DNA of 39,310 bases from Alphaproteobacteria bacterium (GTDB taxonomy: Bacteria > Pseudomonadota > Alphaproteobacteria > TMED109), in contig JAJDYI010000022.1 of NCBI GenBank assembly GCA_022825235.1, positions 1 through 39,310 on the forward strand, read 5' to 3'. This document shows positions 319-18,369 of this stretch, in pieces. Position numbers and translations under genes: made by a program. How positions within the stretch are numbered: position 1 is the stretch's first letter; every line of letters starts with the position of its first letter. Below the pieces are notes generated by a model. That model ran no database searches, was not told where the DNA came from, and saw only the letters and a list, made by a program, of their open reading frames with translations.

Positions 319-966
319 TCAATTGTTCCGGACGGCCAGTGCGGCCGCTTCGCCGGCAAGGCGTGTGACTTCGTCGAACCTGGATGCCCGAACGAGTGCA
401 GGATTTACGAGCCAACTCCCGCCGCACGCGAGGACATTGGACAGCGCAAGATAAATTCCGAGGTTGCTCGGACCGATGCCGCCGGTCGGCAGGAACCGCA
501 TCGAGGGATACGGGCCGGACAACGCTTTGAGGAACGACACGCCCCCGCTGGCCTCGGCAGGAAAGAACTTGACGGTCTCAAGGCCGAAGCCCATGGCCTG
601 TTCGACTCCGGTTGGATTGTTGATGCCGGGGATGATCGGCAAATCCAGCTCGACGCAGGCTTCAACGACAGCGGGATTGAAGCCGGGCGTGACGACAAAC
701 TGGCTGCCAACTCGATAGGCCAGTTCCACCTGATCGACATTGAGAACTGTTCCGGCCCCCACCAGCATGTCGGGAATTTGCTCTCGCACGATCTGGATCG
801 AATCCGCCGCCGCTTCCGATCGGAACGTGATTTCAGCAACGGGCAAACCACCCGCTAAAAGCGCATTGGCAAGCGGCAGTGCGACCTCGGAGCTATCCAG
901 GTCGACGACCGGCAATACCCTTGCTGCGCCAAGCCGCGCCAAGACGCTCCATATATTCTCCGTCAT
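319..966 (-). CDS. eda: 2-dehydro-3-deoxy-phosphogluconate (KDPG) aldolase
   Basis: Class I aldolase that splits KDPG into pyruvate and glyceraldehyde-3-phosphate, the last step of the Entner-Doudoroff route. With the ATG at 966 the protein has 215 residues. The catalytic residues then fall exactly on the E. coli Eda numbering: Glu45 and Arg49 in AEITFRS and the Schiff-base Lys133 in ETVKFFPAEAS. This is why I prefer the ATG over an in-frame TTG five codons upstream (981). Other family segments are GAGTVL, VVTPGFNP and FLPTGGIG. The usual PG..TPSE stretch reads PGINNPTG. The gene lies 75 bases downstream of kdgK on the same strand and is probably cotranscribed with it. The pair converts 2-keto-3-deoxygluconate to KDPG and then cleaves it, which suggests use of uronate- or gluconate-derived sugars. 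Confidence 0.93.
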   Translation of the reverse strand: MTENIWSVLARLGAARVLPVVDLDSSEVALPLANALLAGGLPVAEITFRSEAAADSIQIVREQIPDMLVGAGTVLNVDQVELAYRVGSQFVVTPGFNPAVVEACVELDLPIIPGINNPTGVEQAMGFGLETVKFFPAEASGGVSFLKALSGPYPSMRFLPTGGIGPSNLGIYLALSNVLACGGSWLVNPALVRASRFDEVTRLAGEAAALAVRNN

Positions 967-1041
967 GGTCTTCGATCCCAACTCGCTTTGAATTGCAACG
1001 GACGCGTCTGGACCTTCGTCTTCTGAGGTCGGACGAGCATT

Positions 1042-1944
1042 TCAGCTGCGCGCAATCAAGGCTCCCGACGCGCCAACCACCCGGGAGGCGATCTTGTGAC
1101 CGGCCAAGAGGCATCGCCCTTCGTCTTCGCCGCGAAGGAATGCCGCCAGATAACCGCCGTTGAAACTGTCTCCGGCCGCGGTCGTATCAACGACATCCGG
1201 AGCTGGAGCGAATTCGGGATGAGCGCGGCGAGCGAGCCGTGGCGACACCGGGCCGAGCGCCCCCCGTTTGATGGCGCAGGCATGCCAGTCCGACGCGGCG
1301 AATCGTGCGATGACAGCCTCCTCGTCCGCATCGCCGAACAAGGCGATTTCGTCGTCAACCGAAGGCAGGGCAATGTCGGCCACCTGCCACATCTCGCGGA
1401 CCGAGTGGCGCGCGATCCCGGCATTCTCCCAGAGCTGCGGCCGGTGGTTCGAATCGAAGGCGACATGGCACGCGCCGCGCTCCCGCAATTCGCGCAAATG
1501 CGTGATGAGGCGCCGGCGGGCCGAAGGTTGCAGGATGGCCAGCGTTATGGCCGAGAGATAGACAACACTTGCGGCCGGCAGGAAAGCGAGGGTCTCACCG
1601 GATGCGAACATTCGGCGGGCCGCGGAGTCACTTCGCCAATAGTGAAAGCTGCATTCGCCGGTGCTGTCGGTCGACACGGAATAAATACCGAGATGACGGT
1701 CCCGGTCCCGGTCGACCTGCGAAACATCGATCCCCTCATCTTTCGCCGCGCTCAAGAAGGCATGGGAGAGGGGATCACGGCCCACACGCGTGTAATAGCC
1801 AATACGTGCCGATGAGCCGAATTCCCTGGCGCAATAGACCGCTGTGTTGAACGTATCGCCTGCAAACCCAATACGGAAGTCGACCGTCGATTCTTGCCGG
1901 ATCTCGGCCATGACTTCGCCGATGGCGAGCAGGTGCACTGTCAC
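1042..1944 (-). CDS. kdgK: 2-keto-3-deoxygluconate kinase, PfkB family
   Basis: PfkB/ribokinase-family sugar kinase of 300 residues. It begins with a GTG at 1944 (MTVHLLAIGEVMAEI). The N-terminal substrate-binding part contains GFAGDTFNTAVYCARE, as in KDG kinases. The C-terminal PfkB signature is DTTAAGDSFNGGYLAAF; the Asp in AAGDSF is the catalytic base of the family, and the common GAGD is AAGD here. The specific call (KDG rather than fructose or ribose) rests on the overall pattern and on the immediate downstream eda. The product KDPG is the Eda substrate. The GTG overlaps the stop of an upstream minus-strand ORF by four bases (GTGA), suggesting translational coupling. Confidence 0.88.
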   Translation of the reverse strand: MTVHLLAIGEVMAEIRQESTVDFRIGFAGDTFNTAVYCAREFGSSARIGYYTRVGRDPLSHAFLSAAKDEGIDVSQVDRDRDRHLGIYSVSTDSTGECSFHYWRSDSAARRMFASGETLAFLPAASVVYLSAITLAILQPSARRRLITHLRELRERGACHVAFDSNHRPQLWENAGIARHSVREMWQVADIALPSVDDEIALFGDADEEAVIARFAASDWHACAIKRGALGPVSPRLARRAHPEFAPAPDVVDTTAAGDSFNGGYLAAFLRGEDEGRCLLAGHKIASRVVGASGALIARS

Positions 1945-2252
1945 AAGTCCGCTGCGGCGGCGGACATGCTGGGTTTCCCGTGCCCGCCAACTACCTTGTC
2001 GCAGAAAGGAAGCAGCGGGACTTTTTCGTGATCGTGCCGCATCGCTTCTCCGGTGTCCTCGACCAAGGGATCGATCATATCCGTGACCTGCTGTCCTGGA
2101 ATGGCTCCGTCGCCACGCCAGGCCGATTTCGGAAGGCGCCGGGCAATGATCCCATTGGATCGCGAGGCGTAAATCAGCTTCTCTTCACTGCCGGCTTCGA
2201 GGTTGCTGGCGCACCCGCCCTTCCAGCATCCTAGGCCCCAAGGTCGGGACAT
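1941..2252 (-). CDS. Unidentified 103-residue ORF coupled to kdgK
   Basis: An ATG at 2252 opens a 103-codon frame whose TGA overlaps the GTG of kdgK by four bases. That arrangement is common in real operons. The second half reads like ordinary protein (for example GAIPGQQVTDMIDPLVEDTG and EKVPLLPFCDKVVGGHGK) with about two thirds G/C in third positions. The first third (MSRPWGLGCWKGGCASN) is less convincing. I do not recognise a family. It may be a small genuine gene, the tail of a truncated gene, or chance. An 84-codon frame on the opposite strand covers the same bases and cannot be excluded. The remaining 60 bases up to the plus-strand monooxygenase show no clear promoter. Confidence 0.3.
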   Translation of the reverse strand: MSRPWGLGCWKGGCASNLEAGSEEKLIYASRSNGIIARRLPKSAWRGDGAIPGQQVTDMIDPLVEDTGEAMRHDHEKVPLLPFCDKVVGGHGKPSMSAAAADL

Positions 2253-8358: not shown

Positions 8359-10530
8359 ATGGTCGAGAGAGTGCGAGTGGGACGAAGCCAGGTCGCCGCC
8401 GAACTGCACGCCTTCGTCGAACACGAGGTATTGCCGGGTCTCGGCCTCGCGAGCGACGCGTTCTGGCGAGACTTCGACGCCCTGTTGCACGACCTTGCAC
8501 CGATGAACCGTGATCTCCTTGCCCGTCGCGAGGCTCTGCAGGCCGAGATCGACGCCTGGCACAAGGCCCGCCAGGGGCAGCCGGTCGATCCGGACGACTA
8601 TCGGGCGTTCCTCACCGACATTGGCTACCTCGTGCCCGAAGGACCCGACTTCTCCATCGAGACCTCTCACGTTGACGATGAGATCGCGCAAATCGCCGGA
8701 CCCCAGCTCGTCGTACCGGTCACGAATGCCCGCTACGCGCTCAATGCGGCCAATGCGCGCTGGGGCAGCCTCTACGATGCGCTCTACGGAACGGACGCGA
8801 TTCCCGAGAACGGAGACGCGCCTCGAGGCAGCGGCTACAACCCAGCTCGCGGCGAAAAGGTCATCGCCTGGACGCGGGCCTTTCTGGACGAGGCGGTGCC
8901 GCTTGCTGCAGGCTCGCACCATGATGTCCTCGACTACCGCGTGGAGGGCGGAGCCCTTGCGGCGGGCTTGCCTGGCGGCGCGACCGGTCTCGCCGACCCA
9001 AGCCTCTTCGTCGGCTACCAGGGCGATCCGGCCGCGCCGGACGCGGTGCTGCTCCGCCACAACGGCCTGCATATCGAAATCGCGATTGACCGCACCCATC
9101 CGGTGGGCCGGACCGACCGGGCGGGCGTTTCGGACGTCGTGCTGGAGTCGGCCGTGACCACCATTGTGGATTGCGAAGATTCCGTCGCCGCTGTCGATGC
9201 TGAAGACAAAGTGTCGGCGTATCGCAACTGGCTCGGCCTCATCAAGGGCGATCTCACCGCGAGCTTCGAGAAGGCCGGTGGCACGGTGGAGCGCCGGCTG
9301 AACCCCGACCGCCGCTACATCGGCGCCGACGGCGGCGAGATCGTACTGCCGGGCCGGTCACTCATGCTCAACCGCAATGTCGGTCACCTGATGACCAACC
9401 CGGCGGTACTGGACAACGAGGGCGGGGAAGCGCCCGAAGGCATTCTCGACGCCGTATTCACCTGCCTGATCGCGCTCCATGACCTCACGGGCAACCGGGC
9501 CCACGGCAACAGCCGGGCAGGCTCCATTTACATCGTCAAGCCCAAGATGCACGGGCCGGAGGAAGTCGCGTTCACCGATACGTTGTTCGCCCGTGTCGAG
9601 GACATGCTGGGCCTCGGGCAGTACCGCATCAAGATCGGGATCATGGACGAGGAACGACGCACGACCGTCAACCTCAAGGAGTGCATCCGCGCCGCGCGCC
9701 GCCGGGTCGCCTTCATCAATACCGGTTTCCTGGACCGCACGGGCGACGAGATCCACACGTCGATGGAAGCCGGTCCGATGATCCGCAAGGCCGACATGAA
9801 GGCGGCCCTGTGGCTCGACACCTACGAAAACTGGAACGTCGATGTCGGCATCGCCTGCGGCCTGCGTGGCCGGGCCCAGATCGGCAAGGGCATGTGGGCC
9901 ATGCCCGACCTCATGAGCAACATGCTGGAACAGAAGATCGGGCACCCGATGGCAGGCGCCGATACGGCCTGGGTGCCGTCCCCGACCGCCGCCACCCTGC
10001 ACGCGACCCACTACCACCGCGTCAGTGTCGAGGAACGTCAGGAAGCAGTTGCCGGTCGCGGGCGAGCCGAGCTCGGCAACATCCTTTCGATTCCGGTGGC
10101 GCTCCGGCCCAACTGGTCGCCCGACGACATCCGCGCCGAACTGGAGAACAATGCGCAGGGCATCCTTGGCTACGTCGTGCGCTGGGTCGACCAGGGTGTC
10201 GGCTGCTCGAAAGTCCCGGACATCAACGATGTCGGCCTCATGGAGGATCGGGCCACGTGCCGAATCTCCAGTCAGCACATGGCCAACTGGCTGCACCACG
10301 GGATCTGCACCCAAGACGAAGTGGAAGCGATCATGCGCAAGATGGCCCGGATGGTGGACCGGCAGAATGCCGACGATGCAGCGTACACGCCGATGGCGCC
10401 TGCCTTCGACGGCCCCGCCTTCAAGGCTGCCTGCGAGCTTGTCTTTCAGGGGCGTGAGCAGCCCTCCGGCTATACCGAGCCCGTGCTCCATCGTCGCCGC
10501 GCCGAGCGGAAGGCAGCAGACCAGGCCTGA
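8359..10530 (+). CDS. glcB: Malate synthase G
   Basis: Cytosolic enzyme that condenses glyoxylate with acetyl-CoA to malate, the second glyoxylate-shunt step. The protein has 723 residues, the usual length for the monomeric G isoform. Recognisable segments are [70 protein letters not shown] (glyoxylate/Mg site), [20 protein letters not shown] and [18 protein letters not shown]. The Asp in MEDRAT (residue 630) corresponds to the catalytic Asp631 of the E. coli enzyme. A GGAG at 8344-8347 precedes the ATG. The 108 bases after ugd show no obvious promoter or terminator. The gene converges on the RamB-like regulator and lies close to aceA, so both shunt enzymes are encoded within 5 kb. Confidence 0.97.
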
Positions 10531-10556
10531 CGGCGGCAGCGGCCGGGGCGCCGCCG
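10531..10556 (+). terminator. GC-rich hairpin after glcB, possible transcription stop
   Basis: The glcB stop codon is followed at once by CGGCGGC (10531-10537) and its perfect complement at 10550-10556, with a 12-base GC-rich loop. There is no T-run, so it would be a weak or factor-assisted stop at best. The rest of the gap to the convergent regulator (to 10649) shows nothing else. Confidence 0.3.
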
Positions 10557-10649
10557 CAGACCAGGGAACGTCCCTGAAGCTTCTCCCGACTCAAGTCCTG
10601 TACCGCTAACGGGGTTTCGGAGCCGAGGAGGCAGGCATCTGCCAACGGC

Positions 10650-12104
10650 TCACGCTGGCGCAAAGGTGAACGGTGTGCTTCGCCGCACGTTCTCATCGAT
10701 TTTCAGTCGGTAGTTGAGCGGCGGGTGGGCCCGTTGCCGGCAGTCGAGGCGCTCGCAGACACGACATGCCACACCAATCGGCGTCGCCGCTCGTTCGTTT
10801 CCGAGATCGAGCCCGTCCGCGTAGACGAGCTGTCCGGCATCCCGGATGTCGCAACCGAGGCCGACGGCATACTGTGGCGGCTGTTCCCAGGTTCGCGACT
10901 CGATCAGGTCGACGGTTCGGGCGATCGTGAAGAAGCGCGAGCCATCGGGCATGGCGGCCACTTGGGTTCGAATCTGTGCCGGCATGCGAAATGCATCGTG
11001 CACGATCCAGCGCGGGCAGGTCCCGCCGAACCGGGCGAAGTGGAAACCGCCCCCGCTGAGACGTTTCGAGACATTGCCGGCGTTGTCGACCCGGATGAAG
11101 AAGAACGGCACTCCTCGGGCACCGGGGCGGCCGAGCGTGGTCAGGCGGTGGCAGACCTGCTCGAAGCTGGCGCCAAAACGGCGCTGCAGGATCTCGATGT
11201 CGTAGCGCAAGGCCTTGGCGGCGTCGAGGAAGCGCCCGTAGGGCATCATGACGCAGGCCGCGAGGTAGTTGGCGAGCGACAGCCGGCAGAGGCGTTCGAC
11301 CTCCGGGCTCGAGAGATCGGCCCGTTCCACGTGACGGTCGAGCAGGTCACGGCGCGTATAGAGGGCGACTTGAACCGCGAGCTGAAAACTGCGCGTCGCC
11401 GGTGCGAGCAATTCGGAAAGCAGCACGCGGCAACGGTGGAAATCGAAGCGGCGCGTGGTCTCGGGCATCACGTCGGCGGGCAGCACGCGCACCGCAATTC
11501 CGTGCACATCCTGGAGGTACCTCCCGAGGCCGCCGAACACATCCGTCTGATCCAGTTCGGCTTCGGTCCAAAGGGCTTCCGCGCTCGCCTCGATCTCCGG
11601 GAAGTGGTTGGATTCGGACTGGAGGTAGTCACGAACTTCCTCCACGGGAAACACCGGTCCGCCGGTCCCGACTGGCGTGTCCCGGTTTGCGACCTGCTCG
11701 GCCAGGATCTGGGAATCCTCGCGCAGTTCCCGATACGACTTGTACAGTCGAAGCACGGCCTCGGCGGCGGTGGGGCCGGCTTCCGCGACGGCCCGGACGT
11801 CAGCCTCGCGTACCGGGCGCTCTCCGAACAACGGGTCGCCGAATACCTCCCGGAGGGCCGCATAAAGCCGCGCATCATCGTCCTCGGCAAATTCCTTGAG
11901 ATCGATATCGAATGCCTGGCCGAGACGAAACAGGAGTTGAACCGTCACCGGGCGCTGATTGTGTTCGATGAGATTCAGGTAGCTCGGTGAGATCTCGAGC
12001 TGCTCCGCCATCTCGCTCTGCTTGAGGGAGAGGTCCTCGCGAAACCGCCGGATCTTGTGCCCTAGCAGCACTTTTCGCTCTACGGATCGGTCATTCACCG
12101 GCAT
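10650..12104 (-). CDS. XRE-family short-chain fatty acid regulator (RamB/ScfR/PrpR type)
   Basis: Transcription factor of 484 residues. An N-terminal Cro/C1-type helix-turn-helix lies at about residues 12-65 (RRFREDLSLKQSEMAEQLEI, then SPSYLNLIEHNQRP). A middle region resembles the ImmA/IrrE-like peptidase domain. The C-terminal DUF2083-type domain ends with a Cys cluster (GVACRVCERLDCRQRAHPPL). The architecture is that of RamB, PrpR and ScfR proteins, which sense acyl-CoA or acetyl-CoA status and control the glyoxylate shunt, methylcitrate or related genes. I take the ATG at 12104 because GGAG at 12114-12117 is well spaced for it; an in-frame TTG lies five codons upstream. The gene is divergent from aceA and convergent with glcB, so it is the likely regulator of both. 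Confidence 0.88.
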   Translation of the reverse strand: MPVNDRSVERKVLLGHKIRRFREDLSLKQSEMAEQLEISPSYLNLIEHNQRPVTVQLLFRLGQAFDIDLKEFAEDDDARLYAALREVFGDPLFGERPVREADVRAVAEAGPTAAEAVLRLYKSYRELREDSQILAEQVANRDTPVGTGGPVFPVEEVRDYLQSESNHFPEIEASAEALWTEAELDQTDVFGGLGRYLQDVHGIAVRVLPADVMPETTRRFDFHRCRVLLSELLAPATRSFQLAVQVALYTRRDLLDRHVERADLSSPEVERLCRLSLANYLAACVMMPYGRFLDAAKALRYDIEILQRRFGASFEQVCHRLTTLGRPGARGVPFFFIRVDNAGNVSKRLSGGGFHFARFGGTCPRWIVHDAFRMPAQIRTQVAAMPDGSRFFTIARTVDLIESRTWEQPPQYAVGLGCDIRDAGQLVYADGLDLGNERAATPIGVACRVCERLDCRQRAHPPLNYRLKIDENVRRSTPFTFAPA

Positions 12105-12137
12105 GGTCCGTGACTCCAACTATTTTCATGATTTACT

Positions 12138-12230
12138 AATTGACAAACAAGAAATTTGCAAAATTCACACGATGACCCTTTTACAATCTGAAAGCTATGG
12201 ACGATCCACTTTTTTGTCAATTAAGTTGAC
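12138..12230. promoter_or_regulatory. Divergent aceA/regulator control region with RamB-like box and symmetric repeats
   Basis: This is an AT-rich island in otherwise GC-rich DNA. GAAATTTGCAAA at 12151-12162 differs by one base from the RamB consensus known in actinobacteria ((A/G)AACTTTGCAAA). AATTGACAAA (12138-12147) and TTTGTCAATT (12213-12222) are a perfect 10-bp inverted pair whose centres are 75 bp apart. GTCAA (12216-12220) and TTGAC (12226-12230) form a further local palindrome. On the minus strand, a TTGACA within the right-hand repeat with a weak -10 seventeen bases on could drive the regulator. No strong plus-strand -10 box is evident. The layout suggests a regulator bound at two sites, possibly with looping; this is inference. 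Confidence 0.55.
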
Positions 12231-12275
12231 CGCAGATGACAGTTCCAGTTGCAGCTGGAAAGGGAGATTTGATCA

Positions 12276-13568
<1,293 letters not shown>

Positions 13569-14167: not shown

Positions 14168-15457
14168 ATGTCAGAACTGCACGAGCTCACTGCAACGGAG
14201 GCGGCAGCCCGAATGGCGGACGGCGAGTTCTCGTCGGTCCAACTGATTGAATCCTGTCTCGAGCGCATTCACGAGCGCGAGCCGGAGGTCGGAGCCTGGG
14301 CACATTTTGACGAGACTCTGGTGTTGAATGCCGCACGCACCGCCGACGCGACGAGTCCGAGGAGCCCGCTCCACGGCATTCCCTTTGGCGTCAAGGACAT
14401 CATCGACACTTCGGAACTGCCAACCGAATGCGGCACGCCGATCCACGCCGGACGACGGCCTCTCGAGGACGCGAGCTGCGTCGCCAGGATGAAGGCCGCT
14501 GGCGCGGTGATGATGGGCAAGACCGTGTCGACGGAGTACGCGCTCTACCATCCGGGCAAGACGAGGAATCCGCTGAACCTCGAGCACACCCCCGGCGGCT
14601 CGTCAAGCGGTTCGGGAGCTGCGGTCGGCGACTTCATGGTGCCGATCGCCTTCGGCAGCCAAACGGCAGGCTCCCTGATCCGCCCGGCATCGTTCTGCGG
14701 CGTCTGCGCCTTCAAGCCGACGCATGGCGACACTGATCTTTCCGGTGTCCTGTCGCTGGAGCCGAGCTTCGACACACTCGGCTTTATGGGACGGAGTTTC
14801 GACGACCTGGCGACCTTCTCCGCGATCGTTCACGACTTGACGCCGCAGCCGCTGGCCGACGGGATTGGCTGTCGGCCGCGCATCGGGCTCTGCCGCACGC
14901 CGATGTGGTCGAGGGCCGAGCAGGCCAGCATCGCTGCGTTCGAGGACGCCGCCGATCAACTTGCGGTCTTCGGAGCGGAGATCGACGAGGTCGGGCTGCC
15001 GGCTGCGTTCGACGATTTGCTGGACACGCACGCGACAATCCTCAGGGCCGCACTGCCTCGCAGCTTGGGGGAGGACTACCGGAATCACAAAGACCTGATG
15101 AGTCAGGTGCTTCGTACCATGATCGAGGATGGTATTGCCGTACCCGAGGCCCACGAAGAGGCCCTGCGCAGCCACGCGAAGGAGTGTCGGGCTACTGTCA
15201 ATGACATCTTCGGAAACTGGCACGCGTTTCTCTGCCCGAGTGTCATGGGCGAAGCGCCTGAAGGAATTGGGGCGACGGGAAGCCCCGTGTTCCAGGCGAT
15301 GTGGACACTTCTCCACGTTCCGATCGCGGGAATCCCGGGGGCGGTAGGACCTACCGGGCTCCCGGTCGGGATCCAACTCGTTGGGCGGCGGGGACACGAC
15401 CAGACCATCCTGCGCCTCGCCAAGTGGTTCCACACCCGTCGGGCCCAAGACTGTTGA
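14168..15457 (+). CDS. Amidase-signature family hydrolase
   Basis: Amidase of 429 residues that would hydrolyse a C-N amide bond; the substrate is unknown. The Ser-cisSer-Lys triad can be placed by family spacing. Lys76 is in IPFGVKDIIDT, the cis-Ser145 in TPGGSSSGSGAAVG, and the nucleophile Ser169 in AFGSQTAGSLIRPASFCG. The intervals 76-145-169 equal the 62-131-155 of malonamidase E2. The glycine-rich signature lies between the two serines. It is shorter than GatA (about 480 residues), and no gatB or gatC is nearby, so a stand-alone amidase is more likely than tRNA amidation. ATG 14168 lacks a well-placed Shine-Dalgarno. The gene seems to stand alone. Confidence 0.88.
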   Translation: MSELHELTATEAAARMADGEFSSVQLIESCLERIHEREPEVGAWAHFDETLVLNAARTADATSPRSPLHGIPFGVKDIIDTSELPTECGTPIHAGRRPLEDASCVARMKAAGAVMMGKTVSTEYALYHPGKTRNPLNLEHTPGGSSSGSGAAVGDFMVPIAFGSQTAGSLIRPASFCGVCAFKPTHGDTDLSGVLSLEPSFDTLGFMGRSFDDLATFSAIVHDLTPQPLADGIGCRPRIGLCRTPMWSRAEQASIAAFEDAADQLAVFGAEIDEVGLPAAFDDLLDTHATILRAALPRSLGEDYRNHKDLMSQVLRTMIEDGIAVPEAHEEALRSHAKECRATVNDIFGNWHAFLCPSVMGEAPEGIGATGSPVFQAMWTLLHVPIAGIPGAVGPTGLPVGIQLVGRRGHDQTILRLAKWFHTRRAQDC

Positions 15458-16113
15458 AACCGCACTGGGTGGCCGCGAGGCCGTTGACGCGGCACTGCCC
15501 GAACAGGCTCGAGCTCCGGCATCGCGCTGCAATTGCGAGACTCTTGGGACACAGGGGCGAGCAACCAGCGAGATCAACTGCTCCGCGGCGTCTCGAACTA
15601 AACTGGTGCGACTTCGTCATCTCGGGAAGGGGTCAGCGTCAGCGATGCTGGCCAGTCCGCCCGGGTTCGTCCGGTACCCGTTTGCCCGAAGCACGCAAGG
15701 GCGACGCCAAGCTTGCAATGATGACCTCGGCCTGACCCGGAAGAAGCTCGACAGATCCAGCTACGGCCCTCGTGGCGAGCGAAATCTCGCGAGGGAAGTC
15801 GCCGGTTGGCGCCCGATCCTGTATCACCCGAACGCTCGAAGCGTGTACGCCTATCGCCAAGAGACGACTGATGCGTCTCCGGACGACCTCCCCGTTGACG
15901 CCTTTGCACGCTCGCTCAAGCAGAACCATGCGTCGATCGGCTCCACGAAGTACGCATCGCTGGAATACGTTTGCTCCTTGAGCGACAATCTGACCATCAA
16001 GCTGTCCTCGTAGCAGCCTGGGCGTCCCGGCACTATCCGCCGGATGTCGCGCGGGGCGTGAGGCTCCTCCTGACGGCTTGAGGCACGATCCAACTCATGA
16101 AGGAGGAAACCCA
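15458..16113. other. Decayed or non-coding stretch between amidase and GFA protein
   Basis: There are long open frames on both strands but none convinces. On the minus strand, one frame from about 15996 reads MVRLSLKEQTY followed by AWFCLSERA. This faintly recalls the start of FadR/GntR-type regulators (SLKEQAY...LSERxLA), but the similarity is lost afterwards and continues, if at all, in another frame (VRRRISRLLAIGVHASSV). It may be a dead regulator gene. The plus-strand 210-codon frame in the same place has no recognisable domain. I call no gene here. Confidence 0.35.
16101..16106 (+). promoter_or_regulatory. Strong Shine-Dalgarno that sets the GFA protein start
   Basis: A perfect AGGAGG lies seven bases upstream of the ATG at 16114. 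It shows that the upstream in-frame ATG at 16078, which has no such site, is not the start. Confidence 0.85.
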
Positions 16114-16551
16114 ATGTCGAATAAGTACTCCGGAGGGTGCGATCACATTCACACGCATGCAGACGACGAACCGGTGGACAACCACACCTGTCACTGCTCC
16201 GTCTGCAAGCGCGTTACTGGTCAGCCGACTACCCACGTGGTGTTTTTCAAGCACGAAGATATGCACGTCGACAACGAAAACGGCTTGAACCGTCAGCCTT
16301 TCAACGATCAGAACCCAGAAGGTCCGTTGGAACTTTGCACCTGCGCCACCTGCGGAACACCGATCATGCTTGATGATAAGCAGCGGCGTATTCGCGTGAT
16401 CGTACCGAACTTAATGGGCTACGATCCGGCGAGCCTGCCCCCGACCTACCACGCCTTTTACGATCCGGCCACTGGGGTCCCGAAGCCGGCTGACGGCCGT
16501 CCTGTTCACGAGGGCTTGCGCCCGGACTTTGTTTGGCCGGTTGCCGCATAG
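16114..16551 (+). CDS. GFA/CENP-V-domain zinc-binding protein
   Basis: Protein of 145 residues with the cysteine pattern of the glutathione-dependent formaldehyde-activating enzyme (GFA) fold. HTCHCSVCKRVTGQP supplies Cys26, Cys28 and Cys31, and CTCATCGTPI supplies Cys75, Cys77 and Cys80; together these would bind structural and labile zinc. The usual first motif (G-x-C-x-C-G-A) is replaced by SGGCDHIHTHADDEP, which is rich in His and Asp, so the N-terminal metal site is atypical. Many GFA-fold proteins are not proven to act on formaldehyde, so I give only the domain call. It has its own strong ribosome-binding site and a downstream intrinsic terminator, so it is probably transcribed alone. 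It seems slightly less GC-rich than its neighbours. Confidence 0.78.
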   Translation: MSNKYSGGCDHIHTHADDEPVDNHTCHCSVCKRVTGQPTTHVVFFKHEDMHVDNENGLNRQPFNDQNPEGPLELCTCATCGTPIMLDDKQRRIRVIVPNLMGYDPASLPPTYHAFYDPATGVPKPADGRPVHEGLRPDFVWPVAA

Positions 16552-16587
16552 CGAACGCCAGTAACAATACCGTCGAGCACACAACAG

Positions 16588-16629
16588 GCGCCCCGCACCT
16601 GCCCAAAAGGTGTGGGGCGCTTTGTTCTT
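16588..16629 (+). terminator. Intrinsic (rho-independent) terminator
   Basis: The 12-base arm GCGCCCCGCACC (16588-16599) pairs with 16609-16620, with one G-T pair and a nine-base loop. TTTGTTCTT follows. It lies 36 bases after the GFA-protein stop and is the clearest intrinsic terminator in the window. Confidence 0.85.
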
Positions 16630-16868
16630 CAGATCGCTGGTAGAGGACAGCCGGGTCGTTCAGGCCGAGTGGAAACCGGCGTCACCTGCGTGATCCGCAC
16701 CAGGCAATTCGGAAGCGATGAATGGTGTTTCGGTTTCGCGACCCCACCGCGAGCTTCGCAATTGTCGCTCTCAAGTCTGACTCCCTGCATGAGTCGTAGG
16801 TTCGCACCAAGTATCCGATATGTGTCCCAAAAAACGCCGTTGTTGTATCGATGTAGCGCCGCTGTTCA

Positions 16869-16913
16869 TGGTTGCCGGGGCAGGATTTGAATCCGCGGCC
16901 CGCCGGCTATGTG
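16869..16913 (-). pseudogene. Decayed 3' half of initiator tRNA (tRNA-fMet remnant)
   Basis: Read on the minus strand, the bases up to 16869 give TTCAAATCC TGCCCC GGCAACCA. That matches the 3' end of bacterial initiator tRNA (TTCAAATCC TGCCCC CGCAACCA) at all but one of 23 positions, with an encoded CCA. Upstream, similarity continues with more mismatches through the T-stem and variable loop to a CAT at the anticodon position. The first T-stem base pair is broken, and no 5' acceptor strand (TGCCGGG) or D-arm is found further upstream. It is not a functional tRNA. A 3' tRNA piece like this is what an integrative element leaves at its attachment site. The flanking 16630-16868 shows no assignable gene. 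Confidence 0.6.
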
Positions 16914-17025
16914 GGAACGATTACGGAGATTCCGCGCCCTAGCCCGGAACTGTCGAGCAATCCAAGCTCAATGCGGATGGACCAGCGACTGATTGTTTCT
17001 TGGTGCTCTCTGGCCCGGCGCCGCC

Positions 17026-18369
17026 CTATGACCCCGCCGCCTGATCGGGCCCCCAAGAGGGATCCGAAGCATCGGTAGGTGTCGGCAGTTCCCGCTCGCG
17101 GTTTCCCGTAATGTCGATGGTGTAAATCCGAATCGTGTCGGTGGTGCCAGCGCGGGGTTCAGTGCGCGCGAACGCCAAGAGGCGCCCGTTGGGTGCCCAG
17201 CTCGGCCCCTCCACGAGGAATCCGTCAGCGATCAGCCGCTCGCCGGTCCCGTCCGGATGCATGAGGCCGATGTAGAAGCGCCCCTTCACCGATTTCGTGA
17301 AGGCAATGTAGTCCCCGCGAGGCGACCATACCGGCGTGGTGTAGCTGCCCTCTCCAAAACTGATCCGGCGGGCAACGCCGCCGTCCGCATTCATCACGAA
17401 GAGGTGCGGCCGTCCCGAGCGGTCGGAACTGAACACGATCCGGTCGCCTTCAGGGCTGTAGCTCGGGGACGTGTCGATGGCCCGGCCTCGGGTCAGCTGC
17501 CCGAGGTCGCCGGTCTCGAGGTCAAGGGTGAAGACGTTGGTCACCCCGTCGCGTGCCAGTGACATGGCGACTTCCGACCCCTCCGGGTGGAACCGGGGCG
17601 CGAACGTCATGCCCGAGAACTGCCCCAGCGCCTCGCTTCTGCCTGCGTCGAGGTTGTACCGGAAGACGCTCGGTTCTCGGCCCTGGTAGCTGAAGTAGAG
17701 CGCGCCTTTCCCGTCGGGTGAGAAGCGCGGCGTCAGGACCAGGTGCGACCCGTCGGTGAGATACCGTTGGTTGGCGCCATCCTGGTCCATGATCGCGAGC
17801 CGCTTCACGCGCTCCGTCGCCGGTCCCGACTCGGCCACATACAGGATGCGTGTATCGAAATACCCGGGCTCTCCGGTCACGCGCGAGTAGATGCGGTCGG
17901 CAAGCACGTGCGCCATCCGCCGCGCCAGTGACAGCGGACCGTTTAGGCGGACACCGACCATCTCCCGACCGCCGTAGACATCCCAGGCCCGGGCTGCCAC
18001 CTCGATCGTCCCGTCGCCCCCGTCGCGAACCGTTCCGGCCACCAGCACCTGGGCATCGATGATCCGCCAGTCACGGAACCGCGGCTGTTCGGCGGCGTCC
18101 GCTGCGCGCTGCATGTAGGCATCCGGATCAATCTGGCGGAACAGCGCGGAACTCTGCAGATCATTCACGACGATATCGCCGATGTCGCCCGCGTCCGTGG
18201 CCAGTAGATTGCCTTCCACGTCGAGTGTCAGGGCAAACGGCACAGGTTCGATCCGTCCCTCGGTGATGTCGATCTCGAGGGGTCCTTCCTGAGCCGCCGC
18301 GAAATGACACGTGGCGAGCAGGACGAGAAAGGTCGCGGTTCCTTGAAGGAAGGCTGACATGCGTGACAT
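17026..18369 (-). CDS. tolB: Tol-Pal system beta-propeller protein TolB
   Basis: Periplasmic part of the Tol-Pal machine that links the inner membrane TolQRA complex to Pal and helps outer-membrane constriction at division. The protein has 447 residues. A signal peptide ends near residue 26 (...ATCHFAAAQ). The N-terminal alpha/beta domain is followed by a propeller with repeated PD40-type blades: TPRFSPDGKGALYFSYQGRE, APRFHPEGSEVAMSLARDG, SPSYSPEGDRIVFSSDRSGR, TPVWSPRGDYIAFTK and GPSWAPNGRLLAFARTE. An AGG with suitable spacing supports ATG 18369. The gene is the last of the tol run, 17 bases after tolA. The expected pal is missing downstream. Confidence 0.96.
   Translation of the reverse strand: MSRMSAFLQGTATFLVLLATCHFAAAQEGPLEIDITEGRIEPVPFALTLDVEGNLLATDAGDIGDIVVNDLQSSALFRQIDPDAYMQRAADAAEQPRFRDWRIIDAQVLVAGTVRDGGDGTIEVAARAWDVYGGREMVGVRLNGPLSLARRMAHVLADRIYSRVTGEPGYFDTRILYVAESGPATERVKRLAIMDQDGANQRYLTDGSHLVLTPRFSPDGKGALYFSYQGREPSVFRYNLDAGRSEALGQFSGMTFAPRFHPEGSEVAMSLARDGVTNVFTLDLETGDLGQLTRGRAIDTSPSYSPEGDRIVFSSDRSGRPHLFVMNADGGVARRISFGEGSYTTPVWSPRGDYIAFTKSVKGRFYIGLMHPDGTGERLIADGFLVEGPSWAPNGRLLAFARTEPRAGTTDTIRIYTIDITGNRERELPTPTDASDPSWGPDQAAGS

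Follow-up and report, generated by a model that had tools for sequence, protein, structure and literature searches.

The tRNA 3′ half downstream of tolB

Why should the end of a tRNA, terminal CCA included, lie in the spacer downstream of tolB, and what brought it there? The stretch of DNA analysed here, referred to as the window, comprises 39,310 nucleotides and is the entire contig C22 of an alphaproteobacterial genome of 3.85 Mb in 87 contigs (G000; the other six genomes of the genus are G001–G006, contigs are denoted by C and extracted loci by L). Read on the minus strand, positions 16913 to 16869 of the window give a tRNA 3′ half running from the anticodon loop to the CCA, hereafter the stub. 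It lies 112 bases downstream of tolB (17026–18369, minus strand; Pfam TolB_N and PD40), the chromosomal flank on its anticodon side, and 246 bases from a strong intrinsic terminator with a 15-pair stem (16586–16622, plus strand) that follows a GFA-family gene (16078–16551, plus strand; Pfam GFA). The original prediction, made from the letters of the DNA, was right in placing a remnant between an intrinsic terminator and the 3′ end of tolB.

The match is best over the last 23 bases (16869–16891, minus strand), which correspond in a pattern search to the T loop, the 3′ sides of the T and acceptor stems, the discriminator and the CCA of initiator tRNA (tRNA-fMet), with 1–3 differences from the copies in the genus. 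The single difference claimed beforehand is what separates the stub from the variant on G002 C31; two differences are counted against the intact fMet gene of G003 and against the G000 copies on C13, C62, C84 and C6, and three against that on C19. Over all 45 bases the stub has 11 mismatches to the C13 form and 10 to the C84 and G002 C31 forms, while the second-best position in the window has at least 20. The minimum among 200 dinucleotide shuffles was 16 mismatches, and that in a control of relatives' tolB-flank DNA (loci L116–L201, the G003 loci L115, L123 and L084 being omitted) was 13 over 3.04 million positions, both strands counted. A sequence-only model built from 12 fMet 3′ halves, the stub not among them (R1), gave a sole match in the window, at 16869–16900, with an E-value of 7e-7 and spanning model positions 14–45 only. 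Across the whole genome the stub scored 24.8 bits (E 6.9e-5).

The stub is therefore a real match to a tRNA 3′ half, beyond chance. That a GC-rich spacer should merely happen to resemble a tRNA end is extremely unlikely: the strong portion is limited to the last 23–32 bases and nothing else of an element remains, which is what coincidence would leave, but shuffles and control DNA never came as close, the genome-wide E-value was obtained from a model that had not been given the stub, and a definite fMet scar occupies the same locus in G003. A weak R1 score in itself is no proof of a scar, since intact tRNA-Thr and tRNA-Arg genes of G000 are also found among the weaker matches of this model; the genome-wide E-value of the stub falls within that weak range, so that its identification rests on the other evidence too.

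Which tRNA the stub derives from is less sharply defined by its anticodon-arm part, for which the original prediction had proposed a weaker similarity reaching up to a CAT anticodon. The similarity exists, with 14 of 22 identities to fMet, a value attained by 10 of the 78,578 22-mers of the window; it is not specific to fMet, as tRNA-Thr and elongator tRNA-Met each reach 13 of 22. This bears on the alternative that the stub comes from an element targeting one of these two genes, tRNA-Thr(TGT) or elongator tRNA-Met, and once formed its terminus. An intact tRNA-Thr gene has 13 mismatches in 45 and, with R1, slightly outscores the stub (25.2 and 24.8 bits, respectively). Nevertheless, fMet forms come closest (10–11 mismatches), and among 32 distinct tRNA sequences, taken from two relatives and from 30 of the 42 tRNA matches in G000 (the other 12 had no locus of their own), the ranking is fMet with 11, Thr with 13 and elongator Met with 14. 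Given that fMet is the closest match and that G003 has a clear fMet scar in the corresponding position, we assign the stub to fMet and regard another tRNA as distinctly unlikely.

ARAGORN reported no tRNA gene in the window and neither did Rfam at E-values up to 10, an outcome that the original prediction had named as counting against it; the model of bare halves, R1, does find the stub. The silence of the general programs is as expected, because only half a tRNA is present, a form for which general tRNA models are not designed. Indeed, a search for a 5′ half yielded nothing, the best local alignment being equalled by 380 of 1000 shuffles. This agrees with the claim that no 5′ half exists and speaks against a full tRNA gene, intact or decayed, at this place.

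Directly 3′ of the CCA, positions 16824–16868 (minus strand) may hold a decayed terminator like those behind the fMet sequences of C19 in G000 and of G006 C44, whose alignment scores were reached by 4 and 7 of 2000 shuffles, respectively. Eleven comparisons were made in all, and the different terminator of G003 C5 fits these bases equally well (4 of 2000 shuffles); the resemblance to the C19 type is accordingly no more than suggestive.

The tolB flank in related genomes

A TolB match was obtained in 56 of the 61 genomes searched. Among the six other members of the genus, G003 alone, whose TolB is 95% identical, carries a recognisable fMet 3′ half beside tolB. This half (C10:8989–9033) lies 197 bp after tolB, has the same orientation as the stub, differs from the search pattern by 4 substitutions and is cut exactly at the core of the anticodon loop. 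An fMet-type terminator follows, and the 84 bp made up of half and terminator are 83% identical to a stretch of G006 C32. At up to 13 substitutions, no fMet half was found at other tolB loci (88 loci, L114–L201) besides one G003 place, which was matched twice. Thus, a decayed half stands in the window where a relative shows a clear one, and the cut at the presumed att core, weak in the window, is clear in G003.

The stub is absent from G001, G002, G004 and G005, where the best positions have 22–24 mismatches; these genomes share other DNA in the tolB interval, which in G001, the sole one typed, encodes a BCCT transporter and an HTH protein. In G006 (TolB 98% identical) just 416 bp separate the alignment block with tolB from that with the amidase gene found at 14168–15457 of the window, and the spacer contains neither a stub (best position, 25 mismatches) nor a GFA match. 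This arrangement is a doubtful candidate for the state before insertion; the spacer lacks the stub, but it lacks GFA as well, perhaps by deletion. Relatives without the stub, for which the original prediction had asked, do exist, but an empty pre-insertion site was recognised in none of those of the genus.

Downstream of tolB, BLAST homology reaches 28 bases beyond the stop codon in the comparison with G006 and about as far as the stop codon in that with G003; an alignment suggests a fainter resemblance across some 100 bases. On their CCA sides, the scars of G000 and G003 are no more alike than chance would make them, 80 of 300 shuffles scoring as well, so that the two may be separate events. 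The locus itself has been rearranged, since a PfkB-kinase region from the left end of the window (319–2119, corresponding to L115:6961–8752 with 83.5% identity) is displaced in G003, where it is flanked by a partial amidase match on one side and the tolB scar on the other.

The original prediction further noted that the remnant lies at a break in a normally conserved operon. The break is real: pal follows tolB by 93–318 bp in all nine other genomes of the family whose locus was examined, out of 17 with a TolB match, and it was found downstream of tolB in none of the seven genomes of the genus, for each of which between 2.3 and 18 kb of flank was covered. In G000, pal is on another contig (C9:69134–69442). 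As far as seen, then, tolB and pal are parted throughout the genus. We reject the scar as the cause of this separation, which is present in 7 of 7 genus genomes while the stub is present in 2 of 7. A scar and a broken operon found together are suggestive, but such co-location need not be causal.

Initiator-tRNA halves and recombinases in the genus

Pattern searches of G000 gave four clean fMet 3′ halves (C13:13110, C19:56809, C62:10736 and C84:12057) and a piece extending from the T arm to the CCA (C6:126793). The full fMet genes that had been called for as a comparison were located in relatives, at G003 C5 and G006 C44; in the G000 assembly the pattern searches met halves only, and no intact fMet gene is among the 30 of its 42 RF00005 matches that have loci, the remaining 12 not having been typed in this way. 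Each of the four clean halves has on its anticodon side a tyrosine-integrase ORF that starts 132–217 bp away and reads away from it. The integrases of C62, C19 and C84, like those of G002 C4 and G006 C32, have Arm-DNA-bind_3 and Phage_integrase domains. In the comparison, from which ORFs running off locus ends were dropped, the C13 and C84 integrases are 94% identical, the pairs compared among C13, C84, C19, G006 C32 and G002 C4 range from 51 to 94% identity, and the C62 integrase is distant (28–29%). Terminator-like stems of several types, recognised by eye, follow each half; among those of the clean halves, the C19 stem alone was folded.

The sequence 3′ of the half is common to C13 and C6 (80% over 1.56 kb) and to C84 and C6 (91% over 750 bp), and these are therefore element ends meeting other DNA. 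To judge from sequence, the C13, C84 and C6 ends are likely to form a tandem array. The Islander study describes tandem arrays whose islands each come with a fragment and an integrase of their own (PMC4383910). The 3.85 Mb of G000 contain 36 Phage_integrase matches, with clusters of two to four on C27, C23, C63, C12, C52 and C59.

The same three ends raise the alternative that the stub once bounded an element encoding a large serine recombinase (LSR), with the recombinase gene extending into the 3′ end of the tRNA. In G000 an LSR gene does end in the antisense of an fMet-type 3′ end on C13 (L044:13111–14823), C6 (L043:18386–19945) and C84 (L048:12061–12813), the C-termini at such ends being VAGVGFEPTTFRL, VAGAGFEPATFRL and similar, and on C6 the similarity breaks off near the T loop, the point at which the match in the window turns strong. 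This origin is nonetheless very unlikely for the stub: the window gives no LSR match, and behind the stub there is no sign of the terminator that follows the C13, C84 and C6 ends, 450, 1590 and 1908 of 2000 shuffles, respectively, scoring as high. The Islander publication states that, as of 2014, no integrases other than those of the tyrosine type were known to target tRNA genes (PMC4383910). Apart from these ends, an LSR gene remnant follows the elongator tRNA-Met on G000 C3 (L051:7299–7485), and at G000 C43:10359 (L261) a further LSR copy runs up to an inverted repeat composed of the final bases of the tRNA end, which may be one more junction in decay.

Over the seven genomes of the genus (150 candidates scored per genome), R1 found at least 17 places at E < 2e-6, in six of the seven; 12 of the best 17 are the model's own source sequences, and two places are the intact fMet genes of G003 C5 and G006 C44, the latter followed by a TrwC relaxase gene. 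Twenty loci were examined for integrases, comprising the two intact genes and 18 fragments, the window included; three of the fragment loci (G001 C10, G002 C31:3658 and G004 C89) were not put through ARAGORN. At 7 of the 18 fragment loci a near-full-length tyrosine integrase lies 74–212 bp from the half. Anticodon-loop-cut fMet 3′ halves adjoining tyrosine integrases are thus present both in G000 and in its relatives. The halves of G002 C20, G003 C36, G001 C10 and G004 C89 have no integrase match within 1.5 kb, with queries drawn from the G000 set only, by which other integrase families would be missed; the situation in the window is therefore not unique.

At the stub itself, an integrase, which the original prediction had proposed to look for beyond the window, was not met with: none of the genome's 36 PF00589 matches lies on this contig, which the window covers in full, and the G000 integrases gave no match within 1.5 kb of the stub. 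Comparison of element proteins with the spacer produced nothing convincing, only a single match of 57 amino acids (32% identity, E 0.003). When the DNA of the genus was searched with 16590–17000, tRNA-like pieces and short low-scoring pieces were returned, and no longer copy.

Origin of the remnant and its surroundings

We consider it quite probable that the stub is a decayed att-site remnant of an integrative element that targeted the initiator tRNA gene. The recombination steps follow what is known of such tRNA-targeted islands. The attP of the element would carry a copy of the 3′ portion of the tRNA gene, anticodon loop through CCA, and behind it a terminator; a tyrosine integrase would recombine inside the anticodon loop, the element's copy would rebuild the tRNA, and the 3′ half with its terminator would be left behind at one end of the element. 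The stub may have reached tolB through insertion at a secondary site, and the element at tolB would later have been lost by deletion or decay. A secondary-site insertion fits best because the anticodon side of the stub abuts the chromosome, not an integrase. The same arrangement speaks against an att site, as no more than 112 bases separate the stub from tolB on its anticodon side, the one on which an integrase would be expected.

The old integration scar proposed originally is supported by the four clean fMet halves beside tyrosine integrases and by the G003 half at the same place, but not by any integrase or element next to the stub. We infer that the element was of the same kind as those that have fMet 3′ halves beside their integrases. 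That the stub belongs to an intact tRNA-targeted island is rejected: an integrase beside it and a regenerated intact tRNA at the other end were looked for, and neither was found. As a real fossil of a known kind, the stub is well supported, and no present function is expected of it. It shows that comparison with relatives makes even degenerate tRNA 3′ halves identifiable as fossils of integration, and that this alphaproteobacterial genus has repeatedly hosted elements whose ends lie at the initiator tRNA gene.

The Islander work describes displaced tDNA fragments at genomic islands, including a class with an anticodon-centred crossover (PMC4383910). The stub resembles these fragments in being a tRNA 3′ end of the type left by tyrosine-integrase elements; it differs in that Islander, as described there, requires an integrase and an intact tRNA gene, neither of which was found around the stub, and in being decayed. 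Landing in an intergenic secondary site has a parallel in SGI1, for which integration at sodB–purR is reported besides the primary target thdF (PMC2297512). Unlike the present case, that report concerns an element whose target is not a tRNA gene; at the stub the element is gone, and the step of secondary-site insertion is conjectural. Closer in lineage are the ICEs and IMEs of Mesorhizobium, some with a MOB-F relaxase, which are reported to adjoin tRNA-Met genes (PMC8627217). Like the elements considered here, they are alphaproteobacterial and lie beside tRNA-Met, and the TrwC relaxase gene after the fMet gene of G006 C44 adds to the likeness; by contrast, they are delineated elements where the window has a relic only, and their tRNA-Met may not be the initiator.

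A bolder idea is that fMet-targeting elements have landed repeatedly at a secondary site in the 3′ flank of tolB in this genus, with G000 and G003 preserving two independent scars. The differing flanking sequences and terminators would favour separate insertions; we nevertheless hold this to be rather unlikely. On this view the insertions would have gone into the place freed when tolB parted from pal. Should the flank prove to be such a site, scar counts over many genomes of the genus would date the waves of these elements.

As to the DNA on the CCA side of the stub, the GFA gene is probably resident. It is unlikely to be cargo of the element; G005 carries a GFA stretch on the same side of tolB (78.6% DNA identity over 566 columns), and short pieces of the region, of 126 and 82 bases, occur in G001 and G002, respectively. 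A plasmid search with 15380–17030 matched only GFA, in four Phaeobacter records. Farther out come an amidase gene (14168–15457, plus strand; Pfam Amidase) and, at 8359–13568, malate synthase G, an ScfR-type regulator and, transcribed divergently from the regulator, a gene of the isocitrate-lyase family, which likely constitute a glyoxylate-shunt cluster.
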